Virus record (IMG/VR): IMGVR_UViG_3300013126_003045
Coordinates: 1-49,478 of that record
Length of the DNA stretch: 49,478 nucleotides
DNA from: a virus
Direction: 5' to 3' (one strand)
This document shows, piece by piece, positions 34,693 through 47,855 of this stretch; the stretch's first letter is position 1; each line of letters opens with the position of its first letter. Position numbers and translations under genes: made by a program. Under the pieces are notes generated by a model. The model saw only the letters and a program-made list of their open reading frames with translations, searched no databases and was not told the DNA's origin.

Positions 34693-36156
34693 ATGTCAAC
34701 AAAAAGTAAAATATTTGGTTCGCTTAATGTAACTGAAGGTATAACAGGAAGTTTATTTGGTACATCATCTTGGGCAGAAAATACTCAAACCTCTTCATAT
34801 GTAGAAACGGCTCAAACAGCATCTTATATATTAAATGCTGTTAGTTCTTCATATGCTTTAACAGCTTCATATGTTGAAACTGCCCAAACCGCTTCATATG
34901 TTTTAAGTAGTTCCTACGCTTTAAGTAGTTCATTTTCAACCTCCTCTTCATTCGCAATGAGTGCAAGTTGGGCACCTTCCCTTCCTATATTTCCATTTAC
35001 CGGATCTGCATTAATTACAGGTTCCTTAATAGTAACCGGATCTGGAATTTTTGAGGAGAACACTACTACAGAAATACTTAGAATAACTCAATTAGGCACT
35101 GGCGATGCATTACGTGTTGAGGATTCTACTAACCCTGATGCAACACCAACAGTTATTACTGCTGACGGTACCATATTAATTGGGACTGGTTCTAGTGGGG
35201 CTAATACAAAGTTATACGTTAAAAAAGGTTCTGCTGGAAGTATAACATACCCAGTAGAAACAACTGCAGTTATAGAAAATAGTACAACTAATTACATAGG
35301 ATTTTTTACTCCCGATGATTCTAATTCTGGAATATATATGGGTAGCCCTAGTGATAGTTTTGGTGCAGTAGTGCGTTGGGGATTTAATCAAGGACATTTA
35401 TTAATAGGTACTCAACAATCAGGCCATGGTATTAGATTTACAGTATCGAATAAAATAAGTTCATCTTTATCATTAACACCAACAGTTAATATCTTAACTG
35501 ACCCAAATGCGATTTTAACATTAACTGGCAGTTTAGTAGTTAGTAGCTCCGGAGCAACTATAACAGGCGATTCAAGAATTACAGGTTCATTAGGAGTAAC
35601 ACAAAACATAACCTCTTCCAGAGCATTTATATCAGCATCTGATGGAACAATAAGTGGTTCAACCCTTACAGTTTATGGCTCAGGTTCAACTCAACCAGTA
35701 TTTACTATACAAGGTTCAAGTGGTGAATTATTTTCTATTACAGATAATTTAAGCGGGAGTTTATTTAGAGTTAATGATATTTCTAGTTTACCTATACTAA
35801 ATGTATCCTCAGATAATACAATACTATGGGGTTCCTTTCAATCCCCATCTTTAAACACAACCGTAAAAAATACACTCACCAACTCAGGATCATTTACAGT
35901 TTATAGTCTACCTACATCATCATATGATGGAGCATGGTTTGAATACATAGCACGTTCAGGTTCAAATACTAGAGCCGGTCAAATAATGGCATTATGGAGT
36001 GCTTCTTCTGTTAATTTTACAGAAATTACAGCATCTCAATTTGGAGATACAAGTGGTCTTTCGTTTATTGTGACAATAACAGGAAGTAATTTTGCTTTAA
36101 CAGGTAGTGTTTCCACATCAAATTGGACAATAAAAACAATAGTAAGAAGTATATAA
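34693..36156 (+). CDS. Tail fibre with TASY repeats
   Basis: 487 residues. The first 90 residues hold TASY-type repeats (SYVETAQTASYILNAVSSSY and similar). IFPFTGSALITGSLIVTGSG (about 98-117) corresponds to the patch in the 788-residue fibre at 20732. The rest alternates Ser/Gly/Thr beta repeats with VYGSGSTQPVFTIQGSSGEL and a compact C-terminal domain. The arrangement suggests a stalk plus tip, receptor unknown. The next gene begins immediately after the stop. Confidence 0.72.
   Translation: MSTKSKIFGSLNVTEGITGSLFGTSSWAENTQTSSYVETAQTASYILNAVSSSYALTASYVETAQTASYVLSSSYALSSSFSTSSSFAMSASWAPSLPIFPFTGSALITGSLIVTGSGIFEENTTTEILRITQLGTGDALRVEDSTNPDATPTVITADGTILIGTGSSGANTKLYVKKGSAGSITYPVETTAVIENSTTNYIGFFTPDDSNSGIYMGSPSDSFGAVVRWGFNQGHLLIGTQQSGHGIRFTVSNKISSSLSLTPTVNILTDPNAILTLTGSLVVSSSGATITGDSRITGSLGVTQNITSSRAFISASDGTISGSTLTVYGSGSTQPVFTIQGSSGELFSITDNLSGSLFRVNDISSLPILNVSSDNTILWGSFQSPSLNTTVKNTLTNSGSFTVYSLPTSSYDGAWFEYIARSGSNTRAGQIMALWSASSVNFTEITASQFGDTSGLSFIVTITGSNFALTGSVSTSNWTIKTIVRSI
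34767..34960 (+). repeat. Second array of TASY-encoding repeats
   Basis: Degenerate TCATATG/GCTTCATATG units in the 34693 fibre, homologous in protein sequence to those at 32541-32885. Confidence 0.7.
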
Positions 36157-36906
36157 ATGAGTATCACTATATCAGGTAGTACTAGTATTTTTTCAAATAT
36201 ATCAACAGATAGTTTAATTTATTATGTTGATGCTGCTAATCCTTATTCTTATGTTAGTGGATCAACATTATGGAATGATTTAACTTCAAATAAAAATGTT
36301 GGGAATCTAATAAATGGACCATTATTTGATCCTTCAAATGCAGGAAGCATTTTATATGATGGAACAAACGATCTAGTTGAAGCAACTGGTATTAACAATT
36401 TAACCTCATTTTCAATTTCAGTATGGTTTAAAATGACAGGACCTGGAAGTACAGGAGGAGCAACAAACACATATTATAATTCATTATTTGGAACCAATTC
36501 AGTTACTAGTCCTACAACTAGAAGAATATTAGTTTCAACTTCAACTAATCCATCAATTACCGAAGGAAGAATTTTAGTACAAATGGGTGGATCTAACTAT
36601 TTTAGTAATAATGATTCTACAGGAATTACTACTACAAATTTATGGAATAATGTAGTATACACATTTACTCCTAATACTGCTAGATTATATGTTAATAGTG
36701 TTGCACAAACATCTCAATCAAATTCTTCTGTTACATTTCCATTTATAAGTGATTCAAAAATATATGTTGGTGCGTATAGTAATCCAATAATAGCATACGC
36801 CATGAAAGGAAATATTGCCCAATGTTTAATCTATAATAAGATTCTTTCCCAATCTGAAATCAACCAGAATTATAAAGCTATGAAAGTAAGATTTGGTATA
36901 AGTTAA
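36157..36906 (+). CDS. LamG/concanavalin-like carbohydrate-binding structural protein
   Basis: 249 residues. The pattern LIYYVDAANPYSYVSGSTLW, followed by SNAGSILYDGTNDLVEATG and SFSISVWFKM, then LWNNVVYTFTPNTARLYVN and a closing KGNIAQCLIYNKILSQSEIN, is the concanavalin A-like/LamG-type jelly-roll seen in phage tail adhesins. It begins directly after the fibre stop and is likely part of the same adhesin assembly, binding a host glycan. Confidence 0.78.
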   Translation: MSITISGSTSIFSNISTDSLIYYVDAANPYSYVSGSTLWNDLTSNKNVGNLINGPLFDPSNAGSILYDGTNDLVEATGINNLTSFSISVWFKMTGPGSTGGATNTYYNSLFGTNSVTSPTTRRILVSTSTNPSITEGRILVQMGGSNYFSNNDSTGITTTNLWNNVVYTFTPNTARLYVNSVAQTSQSNSSVTFPFISDSKIYVGAYSNPIIAYAMKGNIAQCLIYNKILSQSEINQNYKAMKVRFGIS

Positions 36907-37498: not shown

Positions 37499-39601
37499 AT
37501 GGCAGAAACAATTGTATCACCTGGTGTATTAGCTATAGAAAACGATCAATCATTTATTACTCAAGGACCTGTACAAGCAGGTGCTGCTATTATTGGTCCA
37601 ACTGTAAAAGGAAAAGTAGGAATCCCTGTATTGTGCACAACATACAGTGATTATTTAAATAAATTTGGCTCTACATTTTTAAGTGGGAGCCAAACTTATT
37701 CCTATCTTACTTCAATTTCAGCTTATAATTATTTCAATAATGGTGGAACATCATTACTTGTAACTAGAGTAGTAAGTGGATCATTTACTCCCGCTACTTC
37801 TTCAGTTATTCCAACCTCAATAGCATCTACTTCAGCTTCTTTAACTTTAGATTTAGCCTATGTTTCTGCTAGTGTAGCTGCTGTAGGTTCAAGTTCATTT
37901 GGAGTAAATGGAATTACATTTTATTTCACTGGATCAACTGTAGCAAATACTTCAACTATAATTTATATTAATACTAGTTCATTTAGTGATTCAACAACAG
38001 CAGATTATGTTGTTTCCTCCTCAGCTATATTTGATTCTAATAGTTTAGTAGCACCATATAGTGCTTCTTTATCTAATATATCATCTTCTTATAATGATCC
38101 GGATATAACATTTACTTATATTGGATCAAATGGTTTACTTGGGAATTTACAATATGTTACTTCTGGAAGTACAACAACTTATTTTTCTGGAGGTACAAAT
38201 ACTGAAGCATTTGTATTAGAAACATTATCTGAGGGTGAAATGATGAACAGTTCAGGTTCATTATATGCTAATGGTACTTTATCAAGTGGAACAGCAGATA
38301 ATTTTAGATGGCAGATTGTTTCACCAAATGTAAATAACGGAACATTTACTTTAATAATTCGACAAGGTAATGATTCAACAATTTCACCTTCAATTTTAGA
38401 AACATGGTCTAATTTATCTTTAGATCCATTTGCTTCAAATTATATTGAAAAAGTAATTGGAAATCAATATGAAACTGTTGCAAATGACAACGGTGAATAT
38501 TATGTTCAATTAAATGGTGAATATGCTAATAAATCACGTTATGTACGTGTTAAACAAGTAAATTACACTACCCCAGATTATTTTGATAACACAGGAAATC
38601 CAAAACCACAATATACTGGTTCTCTTCCAACATCTTCTTTAGGTGTATTTGATGGAGCAACAGGAAAAAATTTACCAACAGGAGTAGCAGGAGCATATTA
38701 TAATAGTATTTCAAATACAAATATTCAAGGTTTACCTGCTTCTGCCTATACAGAATCTATTTCACTTTTATCTAATCAAGATGCTTATAGATATAATTTA
38801 ATTACTGCTCCTGGTTTAATAGCGGATGAAATAAATTTCCCATCCCATGTTTCAGTAGTATCTCAACTAATCAATACAGTGCAAAATAGAGGAGATGCAA
38901 TGACAGTAATTGATTTAGTAGGATACGGCTCAAATATACTCCCAGTAACTACAAATGCTATAACATATGATACATCGTATGCTGCAGCCTATTGGCCTTG
39001 GGTTTTAACTATTGACCCTAACTCAGGAAGACAAGTTTGGGTTCCTGCTTCAACTATGATTCCTGGAGTATATGCATTTAACGATAGTGTTTCTGCTCCA
39101 TGGTTTGCACCTGCTGGTATTAATAGAGGTGTGATGTCTAATGTTGTTAGAGCAGAACGTAACTTAACTCAAGGTAATAGAGATTTACTTTATGAATCAA
39201 ATGTAAATTCAATTGCAACTTTCCCTAATACTGGTGTAGCAGTATTTGGACAAAAAACACTACAGAAAAAAAGAAGTGCTCTTGACCGTGTAAATGTAAG
39301 GCGTTTATTAATTGAATTAAAAAGTTATATATCTCAAGTAGCAGATACTTTAGTATTCGAACAAAACACTGTTGTAACACGTAATAACTTTTTAGCTCAA
39401 GTTAATCCATATTTAGCTTCTGTTCAACAACAACAAGGTTTAACAGCATTTAGAGTAGTAATGGATGAATCAAATAACACACCTGAAGTAATAGATAATA
39501 ACCAGTTAGTAGGTCAAATATATTTACAACCTACAAGAACAGCCGAATTCATTATATTAGACTTTAATGTTTTACCTACAGGTGCAACTTTTCCAACCTA
39601 G
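37499..39601 (+). CDS. 18: Tail sheath protein, paralogue 1 (T4 gp18-like)
   Basis: 700 residues (T4 gp18 is 659). It forms the contractile sheath. The N-terminal TIVSPGVLAIENDQSFIT and PVQAGAAIIGPTVKGKVG (about 4-42) and the C-terminal core ALDRVNVRRLLIELKSYISQ with LQPTRTAEFIILDFNVLPTG identify the family. PWFAPAGINRG lies at about 538-548. Compared with the next gene it has an extra Ser/Thr-rich block of about 130 residues (about 105-236), probably an outward-facing domain. Strong promoter-like element upstream. Confidence 0.95.
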   Translation: MAETIVSPGVLAIENDQSFITQGPVQAGAAIIGPTVKGKVGIPVLCTTYSDYLNKFGSTFLSGSQTYSYLTSISAYNYFNNGGTSLLVTRVVSGSFTPATSSVIPTSIASTSASLTLDLAYVSASVAAVGSSSFGVNGITFYFTGSTVANTSTIIYINTSSFSDSTTADYVVSSSAIFDSNSLVAPYSASLSNISSSYNDPDITFTYIGSNGLLGNLQYVTSGSTTTYFSGGTNTEAFVLETLSEGEMMNSSGSLYANGTLSSGTADNFRWQIVSPNVNNGTFTLIIRQGNDSTISPSILETWSNLSLDPFASNYIEKVIGNQYETVANDNGEYYVQLNGEYANKSRYVRVKQVNYTTPDYFDNTGNPKPQYTGSLPTSSLGVFDGATGKNLPTGVAGAYYNSISNTNIQGLPASAYTESISLLSNQDAYRYNLITAPGLIADEINFPSHVSVVSQLINTVQNRGDAMTVIDLVGYGSNILPVTTNAITYDTSYAAAYWPWVLTIDPNSGRQVWVPASTMIPGVYAFNDSVSAPWFAPAGINRGVMSNVVRAERNLTQGNRDLLYESNVNSIATFPNTGVAVFGQKTLQKKRSALDRVNVRRLLIELKSYISQVADTLVFEQNTVVTRNNFLAQVNPYLASVQQQQGLTAFRVVMDESNNTPEVIDNNQLVGQIYLQPTRTAEFIILDFNVLPTGATFPT

Positions 39602-39646: not shown

Positions 39647-41344
39647 ATGGCAAAATTTACAGTTTCTCCTGGAGTAGCAATTAGCGAAATAGATAACACA
39701 TTTTTAACAGGCCAACCTGTTCAAGCAGGTGCTACTATTATAGGCCCTACAGTAAAAGGTCCTGTAGAAGCCCCAATACTAGTAACTTCATATTCTGATT
39801 TTCAAAATAGATTTGGAGATTCTTTTATTAGTGGTGGAAATGCTTATTCATATTTCACTTCAATTGCTGCTTACAATTATTTCAACTACGGTGGTACTTC
39901 ATTACTTGTAACCCGTGTTGTAACAGGTTCATATACTTCTGCAACTAGTTCAGCTGCAGTTAATGGATTTACTTCATCATCATTTGCTTTAGAAACCATT
40001 TCTGAAGGTGTTATCATGAATAATGCAGGTACTGAAGGAACAAATAATGTTATTTCTACGGGAACAAATGATAATTTAAGATGGGAAATTACAGGTGCTA
40101 ATACAGGTTCAGGTACATTTAACGTATTAGTTAGAAGAGGAAATGATGCTTCAAATAAAAAAGTAGTATTAGAATCTTGGAACGGTGTAAATTTAGATCC
40201 AAATTCTCCAAAATATATTGCTAAAGTAATTGGAGATCAAGTTTTAGATTATGATTCTACCAATAACCAAATGAATGTTACTGGTTCATATCCAAATAAC
40301 TCACGTTACATACGAGTTAAATCAGTAAACTACCCAACACCAAATTATTTTGATGGAAATGGAATAGCTAAAGCCCAATTTACCGGCTCAGTTCCATTAA
40401 ATCAAAGTGGTTCATTTAGTGGTGCTACAGGTGATATAAAAGGTGGAGCTAATTTTTACGACGCTATCACAGCAAATAACACACAAGGATTAGAAGGTGC
40501 TAATTATAATAACATGATTAACTTACTTTCGAATACTGATGCTTACCAATTCAACGTATTATTTGCTCCTGGTTTAACAAATGATTTACATACAACTCAA
40601 ATTACTAATATTATCACAAATACTATTTCAAGAGGTGATAATATGTTTGTACTTGATTTGGGATCATATGGAACTTCAGTATCTGAAATCATAACTGAAG
40701 CTCAATCAAGAGATACTTCATATGCTGCTGCATATTTTCCTTGGGTTAGAATAATTGATCCAGGAACAGGAAAACATGTATGGGTTCCAGCTTCAACAGT
40801 AATACCAGGTGTATATGCATTTAACGATAAAGTAGCTGCTCCATGGTTTGCCCCAGCAGGTATAAACAGAGGTGGTTTAAATACAGTATTGGCAGCAGAA
40901 TACAGATTATCTCAAGGACAAAAAGATGATTTATATGAAGCAAATATTAACCCATTAGCTACATTACCTAGAGAAGGTGTAGTAGTATTTGGTCAGAAAA
41001 CATTACAAAAAGAAGCATCTGCACTTGATAGAGTAAATGTAAGACGTTTATTAATTGAAATGAAAGGATATATCCGTCAGATTGCAGATACAATAGTATT
41101 TGAACAAAATACCATTGCTACAAGAAATTCATTTATTGCTAGAGTTACTCCATATCTAGAAACAATCCAACAAAAACAAGGTTTATATGCCTTTAAAGTA
41201 GTAATGGATGAATCAAATAATGGACCAGATGTAATAGACAGAAATCAATTAATTGGACAAATTTACATTCAGCCTACTAGAACAGCAGAATTTATTTCCC
41301 TAGATTTCATTTTATTACCAACTGGAGCAGAATTTCCAGCATAA
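39647..41344 (+). CDS. 18: Tail sheath protein, paralogue 2 (T4 gp18-like)
   Basis: 565 residues. Same N-terminal plan as paralogue 1 (FTVSPGVAISEIDNTFLT, then PVQAGATIIGPTVKGPVE) and the same C-terminal core (ALDRVNVRRLLIEMKGYIRQ; QPTRTAEFISLDFILLPTG), without the Ser/Thr-rich insertion. Both share PWFAPAGINRG and FGQKTLQK. All core blocks are present, so it should polymerise. Its own promoter-like element allows separate expression. The two may form mixed or regional sheaths, or one may serve a special ring. Confidence 0.95.
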   Translation: MAKFTVSPGVAISEIDNTFLTGQPVQAGATIIGPTVKGPVEAPILVTSYSDFQNRFGDSFISGGNAYSYFTSIAAYNYFNYGGTSLLVTRVVTGSYTSATSSAAVNGFTSSSFALETISEGVIMNNAGTEGTNNVISTGTNDNLRWEITGANTGSGTFNVLVRRGNDASNKKVVLESWNGVNLDPNSPKYIAKVIGDQVLDYDSTNNQMNVTGSYPNNSRYIRVKSVNYPTPNYFDGNGIAKAQFTGSVPLNQSGSFSGATGDIKGGANFYDAITANNTQGLEGANYNNMINLLSNTDAYQFNVLFAPGLTNDLHTTQITNIITNTISRGDNMFVLDLGSYGTSVSEIITEAQSRDTSYAAAYFPWVRIIDPGTGKHVWVPASTVIPGVYAFNDKVAAPWFAPAGINRGGLNTVLAAEYRLSQGQKDDLYEANINPLATLPREGVVVFGQKTLQKEASALDRVNVRRLLIEMKGYIRQIADTIVFEQNTIATRNSFIARVTPYLETIQQKQGLYAFKVVMDESNNGPDVIDRNQLIGQIYIQPTRTAEFISLDFILLPTGAEFPA

Positions 41345-41881: not shown

Positions 41882-41908
41882 TATTTTAATTAATATGTAT
41901 TGTATAGA

Positions 41909-41933
41909 AGCTCCAATTTATTGGGGCTTTTTT
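41909..41933 (+). terminator. Rho-independent terminator after tail tube gene
   Basis: AGCTCCAA (41909-41916), loop TTTA, TTGGGGCT (41921-41928; one T-G pair), followed by TTTTT. It isolates the tube gene from the secreted-protein trio. Confidence 0.88.
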
Positions 41934-41965: not shown

Positions 41966-41977
41966 ATATTTATAACC
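41966..41977 (+). promoter_or_regulatory. Late-promoter-like element ahead of secreted trio
   Basis: TATATTTATAACC directly adjoining the ATG at 41978; the octamer position reads TATAACCA and runs into the start codon. Besides a late promoter it could be a host-type promoter, since TATATTTA resembles the Bacteroidota TAnnTTTG -7 element. Confidence 0.4.
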
Positions 41978-42571
41978 ATGAAAATAATTAATGTTATATT
42001 ATTTGTTATTTTAACTTATTTTAGTTATAGCCAATGTAATGGAACCCAATCTTTTACTTTAACCCCACCACCTTCAGGAGGAACTTACAATCCAGGACAA
42101 GTAGTAACAATGTGTTATACTATGAATGGGTATTCACAAGCAGGAACTAATTGGATAGAAGGATTTGATTTAGACTTAGGTCCAGGATGGGCATCAGTTG
42201 CGCCGCAGACCGCACCCGCTAATTGTGGAGGAAACAACACTGGAGGTCAATGGTTATGGGTGACATCCGTTACTGCAACAACCCCACCTGGATTAACTGT
42301 TGGACCCGGATATTTCTTTGATTTGAACACGGATGGTAATCCGGGTAATGACTTCGGAGATGCTGGGTCTTGTACTTGGACTTTTTGTGTTACGCTAACA
42401 GTAGCAAACACGTGCACGCCACAAAATTTATTAATTCGCGTGACAGCTGGACCCGATGGATTGTGGGGAAGTTATAACAACAATGTATGTGATAATGTAA
42501 CACCAAACACAGTTTTTAATGGAACAATTAACACCACGCCACCGGTATTAGGGGCAATACAACATAATTAA
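41978..42571 (+). CDS. Secreted Bacteroidota-type surface protein, first of T9SS-linked trio
   Basis: 197 residues with a clear signal peptide, MKIINVILFVILTYFSYSQ, followed by Cys. The mature domain is Gly/Asn/Thr/Cys-rich (PGQVVTMCYTMNGYSQAGTN, GPGWASVAPQ, NPGNDFGDAGSCTWTFCVTL). I recognise this arrangement from the N-terminal parts of large flavobacterial proteins that end in CHU_C sorting domains. It has no sorting domain itself and ends PPVLGAIQHN. Base composition is richer in GC than neighbouring phage genes, especially around 42181-42240. The next gene follows after 10 nt. Probable role: part of an exported surface complex; function unknown. Confidence 0.78.
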   Translation: MKIINVILFVILTYFSYSQCNGTQSFTLTPPPSGGTYNPGQVVTMCYTMNGYSQAGTNWIEGFDLDLGPGWASVAPQTAPANCGGNNTGGQWLWVTSVTATTPPGLTVGPGYFFDLNTDGNPGNDFGDAGSCTWTFCVTLTVANTCTPQNLLIRVTAGPDGLWGSYNNNVCDNVTPNTVFNGTINTTPPVLGAIQHN

Positions 42572-42581
42572 AACAACAACT

Positions 42582-43139
42582 ATGAAACGATTACTCTTAT
42601 TTACTTTTATGCTGATCTCAGGAATAGCATCATCTCAATTAACAACAACAAACCCAGACACAGTTTGTTATCAAACAACTGCCTTATCTACTTACCAAGT
42701 ACCATCTGCAGGAACTGGAACATATACTTGGACGATCCCACCATGTGCTACTTTAATATCAGGTCAAGGAACTAATTCAATACAAGTAAACTGGTCAGCT
42801 TGCCCTGCAGGATTAATTAATAATGCAATTACCGTAGCATTTACAAGTACATCAGGATGTTCTGCTACCCCAGTAACACTTAATGTATTAATTTATCAAG
42901 TTGTACCAACAATTACCCCAGTAGGTCCTTTTTGTGCTGGAGACCCATGTGTAACTTTAACAGCAACCCCTACAGGTGGTGTATTTAGTGGTACTGGTGT
43001 AACTGGAAATCAATTTTGCCCAGGAGCAACTAACTCACTTATTACCTACACTTATACTAATGGAGGATGTACATTTACAGCTGTAACAGGAGCTGTAGTT
43101 AATCCAACACCAGTATTATCACCTATTCAACATAATTAA
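42582..43139 (+). CDS. Secreted PKD/Ig-like protein, second of T9SS-linked trio
   Basis: 185 residues. Signal peptide MKRLLLFTFMLISGIASSQ. Then a PKD-like domain (GTYTWTIPPCATLISGQGTN, about 46-65, with IQVNWSACP) and a second Ig-like unit with paired Cys (GPFCAGDPCVTLTATPTGG, about 113-131, through YTYTNGGCTFTAV). These units are typical of gliding-associated and T9SS cargo proteins of Bacteroidota. The C-terminus, TPVLSPIQHN, nearly repeats that of the upstream protein. No sorting domain is present. Its stop shares one base with the ATG of the next gene (TAATG), so translation is coupled. Confidence 0.8.
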   Translation: MKRLLLFTFMLISGIASSQLTTTNPDTVCYQTTALSTYQVPSAGTGTYTWTIPPCATLISGQGTNSIQVNWSACPAGLINNAITVAFTSTSGCSATPVTLNVLIYQVVPTITPVGPFCAGDPCVTLTATPTGGVFSGTGVTGNQFCPGATNSLITYTYTNGGCTFTAVTGAVVNPTPVLSPIQHN

Positions 43140-43696
43140 TGAGGTATTTAATATTCATATTATTTCCTTTTATTTGTTTATCTCAACAAACAGTAGAGAT
43201 ATGTGATAATTCCCAAACATTTAACTATTTTACCACTTCAACTGAAGGTGGAAATGTTGAATGGGAGGTAAATGGGTTATATTACTATGGAGATGAAATT
43301 ACTTTAACGTGGGATGAAGCAGGAACATATAATATAACAGCAACTGCTATATCTAATGGATGCCCTAGTTTACCTCAAACATACACAGTAACAGTTATTG
43401 AATGTGACCCTTTAATTTATTGGTTTCCTAACTGTTTTACCCCAGATGGAAATGAATTTAATCAAACTTGGGGACCTGTATTTACAAGTGGATATTCAAT
43501 TGATCACTTTGAATTATATGTTGTAAATAGATGGGGAAATTTAATTTGGCAAGCATATGATCCGGCTGCTAGATGGGATGGAACATATGATGGAAAAAAA
43601 TGTTTAGATGGAGTTTATACTTGGGTAGTAAAATTTGATTTACTTAACACAGATGAACGAAGAGTAGATCATGGACACGTGACTATAATTAGATAG
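43139..43696 (+). CDS. Secreted protein with T9SS type B (CHU_C) sorting domain
   Basis: 185 residues. Signal peptide MRYLIFILFPFICLSQQ, then a PKD-like unit (GGNVEWEVNGLYYYGDEITL and GTYNITATAI, about 37-80). The C-terminal 90 residues are a full CHU_C / gliding motility-associated domain (TIGR04131): FPNCFTPDGNEFNQTW, VVNRWGNLIWQA, WDGTYDGK, LDGVYTWVVKF and a final GHVTIIR. This domain targets cargo to T9SS, and type B cargo usually needs a host PorP/SprF-like partner, none of which is in this window. It may carry or anchor the two upstream proteins. Such a domain is unexpected in phage DNA. Confidence 0.9.
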   Translation: MRYLIFILFPFICLSQQTVEICDNSQTFNYFTTSTEGGNVEWEVNGLYYYGDEITLTWDEAGTYNITATAISNGCPSLPQTYTVTVIECDPLIYWFPNCFTPDGNEFNQTWGPVFTSGYSIDHFELYVVNRWGNLIWQAYDPAARWDGTYDGKKCLDGVYTWVVKFDLLNTDERRVDHGHVTIIR

Positions 43697-43700
43697 TACA

Positions 43701-43713
43701 ATATTTATAAACA
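43701..43713 (+). promoter_or_regulatory. Late-promoter-like element
   Basis: ATATTTATAAACA, octamer variant TATAAACA at 43706-43713; one nt before the ATG at 43715. Confidence 0.45.
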
Positions 43714-45182: not shown

Positions 45183-47855
45183 ATGAGTATAAATCAAAAT
45201 CTTGATGATGCTAAAAAGAAACTCGAAGATTTAAGGAAGGAGTATGAAAAACTTACCCTCCTAAAAGCCCCCAAATTTGATATAGGAGAACCAGAAAATA
45301 TAGAACAAATCAATGCTGCTATTAAAATAATGAATGACAGCCTTGAAAAAGCCAAAAAACAAGCCGAAGAATTAGAAGCTGGATGGGGAGGAATCACAAG
45401 AGCTATCCAAACAGCCCTTGAAGAAATAAATAAATCAGAAAAAGCAACTAACCGCGCTAATAAAGCTATGCGGGGTATTAGAAATATTGCTCAAGAATTA
45501 AAAGAAGATCAACAAGGGTTAAGAGATTTAAGTTTAAAAGAATTAAAAGCTAAACAAGATAAATTAAAACTCCTTGCTCAAGAGGCTAGAGAACAAGCAT
45601 CTGCTATTAAATCTCAAGTTGAACAATATACTATTGATAAAAATGGAAATCAACTTTCTGGAGCTGCATTAGAATCTAAATTAAAAAGACTTAGAGCTGA
45701 AGGAAAAATTACAGAAGAACAAGAAGCTTATTATCGAGCTTCTAAAGAAGGAATATCCATTTTAGATGAAGCTAACGATGCTTTAGACGAAAGAATAAAA
45801 AAAGAAAAAGAAATTTTAAATAAAACTGGATTAGCTTCAGCTGCTTTAAAGTCCTTATCTGGTTTTCTCTCTAAAGCAGGAATGAGTGCAATTTCAGAAA
45901 CTTTAGGCTTGGATGACGCTGTTAAAAAAATGAGAGAACTTGCTAAAGATGGAGCAAGTTCATTCGCTATTTTAAAAGGAGGGTTATCTTCAATAGGAGG
46001 AAGCATTAAAGAAAGTTTATCAAATCCTTTAACTGCTGTTATAGGATTATTTGGGTTTTTATACAAAAATGCCATGGATGCCGATAAATATATTGGTGAT
46101 ATGGCTAAAGGACTATCTGTAACTTATGATCAAGCCCAACAGTTAAATAATGAATTTGCCCATTTTGCTGCAATGTCTAATGATGTTGGAATTACTCAAA
46201 AGGGAATGTCTGAAGCTTTAACTCAAGTTAATGCTGAATTAGGATTATCTGCTAAAATATCTAACGAACAGTTAGGTACTATGGAAAAGTTAAATAGGTA
46301 TGCTGGTTTAAACTATAAACAACAAGCTGAAATATTAAGAACTTCTGTAGCTACTGGGGAAAACTATGAAGATTATATAAAAAACGTTCAAGGAACTATT
46401 AAACTTAAAAAATTTGAACAAGGTTTAGCATTAAATGAAAAAAAAGTAATGTTAGACATTAATGCTGCTTCTGATAGAATAAAACTTTCAATAAAAGGTG
46501 GTGGTGAAGGGTTAGCAAATGCAGCAGTTGAAGCTGCAAAGTTGGGTGTTAGTTTAGGAGATGTTGAAAAAATAGCAGATAGTTTATTAAACTTTGAACA
46601 ATCTATTGAAAAAGAACTAAATGCTGAATTATTAACCGGAAAAGATCTTAATTTAGAAAAAGCTAGATCAGCAGCATTGAATAACGATATGGCTACTGTA
46701 GCCGAAGAAATTACTAAACAAGCAGGATCAGCTGCTGAATTTAGTAAAATGAACCGTATCCAACAAGAAGCAATGGCTGAAGCTGTAGGCATGACAGCTG
46801 ACCAGTTAGCTTCTGCTTTAGTAGAGCAAGAAGCGTTAAAATCTGTTGGAGGACAATTATCTGAACAAGAAAAAGAAGCATACGAAGCATATAAAAAACA
46901 ATATGGAGCAGCAGAAGCAGCTAAAAAGTTAAAAGAAGATGGTATAGAAACATTAATGGAAGAAAAATCTTTAGCAGATGAACGACAAGCTCAACAAGAA
47001 AAGTTTCAAGCTGCTATTCAAGGGTTAGCAGCAGCAATGCTTCCATTTTTTGAAATGTTATCTGAAGTAGCTAATGTATTAATCCCCCTAATATCAATTG
47101 CTTTAGAACCTATTAGAATGACCTTTGAAGGAATCTCAGGTATCCTTTCAGGAAACATTGGAGAATTAAGTACCATGTCAAAAATATTAGGAACAATTGC
47201 TCTTTCATTAGGAGGAGCTTATGCTATGTATAGAAGTATAGTAGCCATACAACAAACAATAAATTTATTAAAAGGAAAAGAAATATCATTAGGAGCTAGA
47301 TCAGGAATTATAAAAGCTGCTCAATTTGCAAAAGATAAAGCTTCAGCTGCTGTAAATATAATTAAAACATCATGGGCTACTTTTAGTCCAATTCCATTAG
47401 CTGGAGCGGCAATGGCAGCAGCTGCTATTGCTGCAGGTATTGCTTATCTGAATTCTCAAGCTAGTAAAGGAAATGACGTTTTTTCACCTGCTCCTGGAGG
47501 TAGTGGCTATGGTAAACGTACATTGCTAGGACCTGAAGGTGCAATTCAATTAAACAATAAAGATACTATTATAGCAGGTACCAATTTATTTGGTAATGAT
47601 GTCAAATCAGAACCAGGAAAACCCACTAAAATGGGTTCTGAAGGAGAAATTAAAATTAAAACTGAAGGTGGAAAAGGAATGGATATGTCATCTGTAGTAA
47701 ATGCCATTAATGCTTTAGGAGCAAAAGTTGAGGCATTAGCTAACAGACCAATTAATGTTAATGCTGATGGTAAGAAAATTATTGAAGCTACAACAAACGC
47801 TCGACCTATTGAATCTGGGGAAGCCGCAGCAAAAAATAGCTATAAAATCCAATAA
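45183..47855 (+). CDS. 29: Tape measure protein
   Basis: 890 residues (T4 gp29 is 590), implying a longer tail if the usual length relation holds. The N-terminal 200 residues are coiled coil (DDAKKKLEDLRKEYEKLTLL). A hydrophobic segment, PLTAVIGLFGFLYKN, lies at about 281-295. A helical middle follows (GITQKGMSEALTQVNAELGL). Two hydrophobic stretches come later (MLPFFEMLSEVANVLIPLIS, about 620-639; ILGTIALSLGGAYAMY, about 667-682), and an Ala-rich segment (AGAAMAAAAIAAGIAYL, about 740-756). The C-terminus is Lys/Gly-rich. It sits directly after the chaperone pair, as tape measures do. Confidence 0.88.
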   Translation: MSINQNLDDAKKKLEDLRKEYEKLTLLKAPKFDIGEPENIEQINAAIKIMNDSLEKAKKQAEELEAGWGGITRAIQTALEEINKSEKATNRANKAMRGIRNIAQELKEDQQGLRDLSLKELKAKQDKLKLLAQEAREQASAIKSQVEQYTIDKNGNQLSGAALESKLKRLRAEGKITEEQEAYYRASKEGISILDEANDALDERIKKEKEILNKTGLASAALKSLSGFLSKAGMSAISETLGLDDAVKKMRELAKDGASSFAILKGGLSSIGGSIKESLSNPLTAVIGLFGFLYKNAMDADKYIGDMAKGLSVTYDQAQQLNNEFAHFAAMSNDVGITQKGMSEALTQVNAELGLSAKISNEQLGTMEKLNRYAGLNYKQQAEILRTSVATGENYEDYIKNVQGTIKLKKFEQGLALNEKKVMLDINAASDRIKLSIKGGGEGLANAAVEAAKLGVSLGDVEKIADSLLNFEQSIEKELNAELLTGKDLNLEKARSAALNNDMATVAEEITKQAGSAAEFSKMNRIQQEAMAEAVGMTADQLASALVEQEALKSVGGQLSEQEKEAYEAYKKQYGAAEAAKKLKEDGIETLMEEKSLADERQAQQEKFQAAIQGLAAAMLPFFEMLSEVANVLIPLISIALEPIRMTFEGISGILSGNIGELSTMSKILGTIALSLGGAYAMYRSIVAIQQTINLLKGKEISLGARSGIIKAAQFAKDKASAAVNIIKTSWATFSPIPLAGAAMAAAAIAAGIAYLNSQASKGNDVFSPAPGGSGYGKRTLLGPEGAIQLNNKDTIIAGTNLFGNDVKSEPGKPTKMGSEGEIKIKTEGGKGMDMSSVVNAINALGAKVEALANRPINVNADGKKIIEATTNARPIESGEAAAKNSYKIQ

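Follow-up and report, generated by a model that had tools for sequence, protein, structure and literature searches.

The viral DNA analysed here, a stretch of 49,478 nucleotides that we call the window (IMG/VR record IMGVR_UViG_3300013126_003045), carries three consecutive genes, A, B and C, which we read as a surface protein of host type cut into three pieces. Each piece would be exported by Sec, the pieces would dock on one another in a donor-strand-like manner, and C alone would take them out of the cell by the type IX secretion system (T9SS); we give this reading slightly better than an even chance. The original prediction for this segment had missed a C-terminal tag common to A and B and the fission point to which it belongs, which may explain how the pieces cooperate.

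Genes, domains and expression signals of the trio

Gene A (41978-42571, + strand, 197 aa; signal peptide 1-18, mature protein from Q19) encodes an exported passenger made of one Cys-rich beta domain. Gene B (42582-43139, + strand, 185 aa; signal peptide 1-18) encodes an exported connector of two Ig-like units and gene C (43139-43696, + strand, 185 aa; signal peptide 1-15) an exported PKD-like domain followed by a T9SS type B sorting domain, the stop of B and the start of C overlapping by one base at TAATG. The signal peptides were called from sequence and alignment: a hydrophobic N-terminal stretch precedes a Gln (Q19 in A, Q19 in B, Q16 in C) that is invariant in alignments of 28-30 homologues of each protein. 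Gln at the mature N-terminus is the Q-rule of Bacteroidetes signal peptidase I substrates (PMC5837995), and the three open reading frames with their signal peptides thus stand as originally predicted.

So does the CHU_C type B domain announced for the end of the third protein. Located at 43424-43693 on the + strand and listed at 42.5 bits, above the cut-off, it brings C to 41.6 bits against TIGR04131 (curated cut-off 35) and 50.8 bits against PF13585 (cut-off 27), and it is conserved in all cassette copies. It is also the sole T9SS signal in the trio: searches of Pfam and NCBIfam gave neither A nor B a type A or type B sorting domain of its own, so that the idea of a three-gene T9SS unit holds for the signal on C and not for its two partners. 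Bacteroidota surface domains had been proposed for both of these. B matches PKD_6 (PF19408, 35.4 bits, cut-off 25, 1.3e-8, residues 21-100), its second Ig-like unit being visible in the alignment without a family match; A matched no named family, though large Bacteroidia surface proteins contain a domain homologous to it. B and C are also homologous to each other in their N-terminal halves (hhalign 97.8%, the match lying partly in the signal peptides), and the two could therefore take up the same kind of strand.

Upstream of the trio lie two tail sheath genes (37499 and 39647) and a tail tube gene (41393); downstream come a 123-aa gene without assignment and a baseplate-hub-like gene (phrog_150). 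The proposed position between tail tube and tail chaperone is therefore correct on the upstream side and finds no support for a chaperone on the other. Judged by the tail sheath, the nearest relative in culture is Flavobacterium phage immuto (51% identity), where no trio separates the tail tube gene from the baseplate hub gene. Several neighbouring genes are worth recording in their own right. The sheath genes stand in tandem, the longer at 37499-39601 and the other at 39647-41344, and are doubled in related contigs too, immuto having a single one at the corresponding site. Further upstream, a protein with many SSYALTASY-like repeats (34693-36156) is directly followed by a lectin-like Laminin_G_3 protein (36157-36906); the two are possible tail fibre and receptor-binding genes.

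The gap between the tail tube gene and the trio contains the expected terminator, an intrinsic-terminator-like hairpin at 41906-41931 on the + strand (11-pair stem, 4-base loop, T tail). The promoter-like element required a different reading. Sigma-70-like matches in the window are at shuffle level (47 found, 45.2 expected), and what recurs instead is the element TATTTATAA, a putative phage promoter present before the trio at 41967-41975 on the + strand. The window holds 15 copies on the + strand, from 3910 to 47863, and 4 on the - strand; 13 of the 15, the trio's among them, sit 11-32 nt before gene starts, including those of both sheath genes, the tube gene and a large gene at 45183. For the related pattern WATTTATAA the window has 22 occurrences where 10.8 are expected, and none of 100 shuffles reached that count. 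Neither B nor C is preceded by TATTTATAA, and the following gene has the next copy (43702-43710, + strand), at the start of the following unit. With a terminator upstream, the element before A and none before B or C, the trio reads as one expression unit under putative phage-type signals, and its expression would be late. At other loci with quite different neighbours, a TATTTAT element was often seen by eye just before the first gene; a script pattern for this type of element counted it at 29 of 62 loci.

Distribution of the cassette and its shared C-terminal tag

Scans of IMG/VR, run with each of the three proteins and with an alignment of C, yielded 62 distinct trios in viral contigs, all in the order passenger-B-C on one strand. 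Given this conserved synteny in dozens of independent viral contigs, we reject a misassembly of host DNA into the phage contig, the doubt attached to the original prediction. The cassette occupies at least ten gene neighbourhoods (counted by eye) on contigs of up to 436 kb. It lies among tail genes in the window's lineage, and elsewhere next to thymidylate synthase and RNA ligase, DnaJ, a GH16 enzyme or many unknown genes. Its placement in the tail cluster thus turned out to be incidental, and a tail-specific function is rejected. On a tree of B plus C, 4 changes are required for the tail site and 4-5 for the passenger type. As far as sequence tells, then, the cassette has been passed from phage to phage or replaced, and different passengers have come to occupy its first position. 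Values of dN/dS between 0.06 and 0.18 for all three genes in the pairs examined indicate purifying selection on A, B and C.

Some cassettes have further company. In four loci a large exported protein lies directly before the passenger (L030 2473-4932, L031 2484-4934, L034 2277-4493, L295 189-2348); these proteins have type-A-like T9SS ends, with a weak Por_Secre_tail match in L030, and the loci look like T9SS cargo islands of large phages. Five phages with split trios (G202, G204, G205, G217, G220) encode a further CHU_C protein, of 730-817 aa, and in one lineage a GH16-family glycoside hydrolase gene directly follows the cassette (L110 4544-5260).

The passenger and B finish on the same short tag, GAIQHN in A (42551-42568, + strand) and SPIQHN in B (43119-43136, + strand). 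A C-terminus of the form [ILV].H[ND] is found in 62/62 passengers and 62/62 B proteins, in none of the 62 C proteins, and in 9 of 882 other ORFs; eight of these nine are passengers directly upstream of B and the last is an exported protein directly after C. The latter, L066 6995-8440, is a second tagged exported PKD protein in its locus. Where A is missing, the gene before B encodes another signal-peptide protein that is identically tagged and carries an SprB repeat, an ALK/LTK glycine-rich domain, a PKD domain or no recognised family. All aligned B homologues, down to about 47% identity, keep the Ile and the His of the tag. Among ORFs near 79 bacterial CHU_C genes, the ending appeared in one only, an unrelated match on the antisense side. 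The resemblance to the His-Asn end of an intein was set aside, as there is nothing downstream of the tag to splice.

Unsplit relatives and the probable fission point

In bacteria the domains of the trio belong to long single chains, as had been predicted from their usual occurrence in one large protein. The closest bacterial CHU_C relatives of C come mostly from Crocinitomicaceae (Fluviicola, Taishania, Brumimicrobium) and are mostly the ends of long proteins, a list that may be biased by the scan pattern used. Crocinitomicaceae and Fluviicola-like bacteria are accordingly the candidate hosts. B-like units in six bacterial genomes all fall in frames of about 550 aa or more and never in a stand-alone frame, which speaks against a bacterial stand-alone operon as the template of the phage trio. 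A genome-wide scan with B found no relative, and a scan of 240 genomes at E 1e-22 gave no match, an uninformative outcome with 13 candidates scored per genome and no positive control. Domains like A were detected in 30 of 200 genomes of one family and in 62 of 395 of the class to which it belongs. Almost all of them are part of long frames; those short frames that were inspected end at the edge of a stretch or contig, or look broken. Some of these bacterial chains have a signal peptide and A at the start and CHU_C at the end, as in the phage protein.

Unsplit forms also exist in phages: ten proteins join passenger, B and C in one chain, one of them in the 634-kb phage LR745206. Split and fused phage forms are on opposite sides of one branch of the tree (100/99), which fits a single split event, as judged from these sequences. 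The bacterial row, on a very long branch in the first tree, was left out of the second, and the direction from unsplit to split is taken from the bacterial form being a single chain.

Comparison of the junctions places the tag. In split pairs, the linker from the last GC of B to the first Cys of the C domain measures 22 + 7 = 29 residues in 53 of 59 pairs; of the other six, four have 48-49 residues, probably from an early start codon chosen for C. By hand count, five of eight printed fused linkers have 29 residues, and the remaining three have 28, 33 and 34. Side by side, the B-C junction reads ..VTVNPTPTLSPISHN / QQTIEIC in the split form and ..VTVNPQPIILPITPSDEFFELC in the fused one: the fused linker, too, has the tag's conserved Ile, which there leads on to the next domain, while the final HN is seen in the split form alone. 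Similarly, at the A-B junction the passenger end ..PPQIVLGPISHN aligns with fused ..PPQIFITPISGEDTIC, with mature B about 7 residues longer than its fused counterpart. Since linker lengths and the Ile match between split and fused forms, the alignments strongly suggest that the tag is the counterpart of the strand with which the next Ig/PKD domain begins.

Structure prediction gave a compatible picture. A alone is predicted as beta-rich (pTM 0.67) with a tag of low confidence, and a fold search with it returned generic beta-sandwiches only (cohesin, pilin and adhesin domains, best E 8e-4) and no function. At one locus (L040) the three genes share a frame, and a read-through chain could be given to AlphaFold, with TAA taken as Gly for modelling only. 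This artificially linked model is weak overall (pTM 0.34), with fair B and C domains; both tags reach pLDDT above 50 beside lower stretches and form two-residue bridges at x-H. Its residues 383-485, which comprise the B tag, the signal peptide and the first domain of C, align with complete single PKD domains (4r5o, 1l0q, 4tn9; Z 9.0-10.1, rmsd 2.3-2.5), the alignment being known by its end points alone. Weak as it is, the model is consistent with the tag as a first strand.

Proposed docking, export and benefit to the phage

According to the proposed mechanism, A, B and C would each cross the inner membrane by Sec thanks to signal peptides of the signal peptidase I type. Each tag, left at the fission point, would be the first beta strand of the next piece's Ig/PKD domain, and in the periplasm strand complementation in trans would join A to B and B to C. 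C would then carry the complex out via the host T9SS and a host PorP/SprF-like shuttle, and the passenger would be displayed on, or shed from, the infected cell. Because any tagged protein could dock, passengers would be exchangeable before a constant B-C pair. The general form of this route, in which the ending ..I.HN lets a protein dock on B, which in turn docks on C, the one piece that exports the folded complex, so that exchangeable cargo lacking a T9SS signal leaves in trans, is put forward tentatively, as a possibility well short of even. That the T9SS would export a complex we infer; our literature searches, with small coverage of subscription papers, found no documented T9SS export of a complex through one signal and no donor-strand work on T9SS.

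For its export, type B cargo depends on a PorP/SprF shuttle, which is scarce and stoichiometric in F. johnsoniae (PMC12618676), and type B proteins have been found bound to PorP/SprF-like proteins (PMC9143113). No match to this family (PF11751) was obtained on 22 cassette-bearing viral records including the window, which may be fragments with a shuttle gene lying outside them; the identical search gave 16-20 matches in each of three bacterial genomes. On this evidence the phage probably borrows the host shuttle. Orphan type B substrates exist (PMC12618676), so the absence of a shuttle gene does not exclude C from this class.

The tag could be understood differently, as a sorting, anchoring or processing signal by which a host or phage factor recognises A and B separately, each being exported or anchored alone. 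Its being short, invariant and strictly C-terminal on unrelated proteins would suit such a signal, as would the restriction of HN to the split form. Yet, HN apart, the tag agrees in both position and length with the interdomain strand of unsplit chains, the surroundings of the 79 bacterial CHU_C genes are free of it apart from the antisense-side match, and tagged proteins always adjoin B and C; we regard this explanation as unlikely. The tag might also be a functionless relic, fission by itself accounting for the resemblance of the B end to an interdomain strand. A relic would drift, however, whereas Ile and His are kept across the divergent B homologues and unrelated passengers share the ending, which makes this the least probable of the readings considered.

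Other explanations concern the place of action. The pieces might stay in the periplasm or act separately, the trio serving lysis or the envelope rather than surface display. A putative promoter common to the structural genes and a T9SS signal on C alone would agree with this, but the type B domain exceeds both curated cut-offs and is kept in every copy, the bacterial relatives are surface proteins of T9SS type, and no lysis domain was found, so that we judge it improbable. Ig-like domains are known in phage structural proteins. Together with the location of the window cassette among tail genes, this would favour A, B and C as virion parts, decoration or fibres, one of the roles originally suggested. 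The signal peptides on all three proteins speak against it, as do the cassette copies far from tail genes and the lack of the trio at the corresponding site of immuto, and we consider it very improbable.

Under the docking model that we prefer, the benefit to the phage is the least certain part of the explanation. The complex could keep other phages out, the superinfection block of the original prediction being a guess, or it could alter adhesion; one of the host's own adhesins may be deprived of its shuttle. The role that we rank first, while holding it rather doubtful, is the masking or displacement of T9SS-dependent adhesins, which are possible phage receptors, either directly or via shuttle depletion. 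The putative promoter suggests co-expression with structural genes, which argues against receptor exclusion, a function expected early.

Chaperone-usher pilins offer the nearest mechanical parallel: in donor-strand complementation, a terminal peptide fills the missing strand of the next Ig-like subunit. The trio would work on the same principle. The pilin donor, however, is an N-terminal extension that replaces the G strand and works with a chaperone and an usher, whereas here a C-terminal tag would provide the first strand, with T9SS export and a predicted docking. Among T9SS substrates, the trio is close to SprB-like adhesins with type B C-terminal domains, which share TIGR04131, Ig/PKD/SprB-type surface domains and a signal peptide (PMC12618676, PMC9143113); those are single large bacterial chains, often with their own shuttle gene, whereas the trio is in three pieces with no shuttle gene found. 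Q-rule proteins of Porphyromonas gingivalis phages are likewise fitted to Bacteroidota Sec/SPI export, in a report that mentions neither T9SS nor a trio or tag (PMC10367356). Phage-encoded T9SS cargo as such is already known from ‘Cryophage’, whose genes similarly have T9SS sorting domains, variable cargo and a presumed use of the host system; in the accessible part of that report the cargo has type A domains in a single chain (endoglucanase, GH39, PA14), and no split trio or tag is described there (PMC7468147). Our literature searches found no report of the trio or of a split, tagged T9SS protein.

Should the docking model hold, these phages would provide a natural case of T9SS cargo exported in trans through a short C-terminal tag, which would bear on the export of preassembled complexes by this system and could furnish a display tool. 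The signature of a tagged passenger followed by B and C is a sharp means to find more such phages and their hosts, and how these phages handle T9SS-exported receptors becomes directly testable. More generally, the distribution of the cassette suggests that T9SS-based remodelling of the host surface is a widespread and conserved trait of uncultured Bacteroidota phages.
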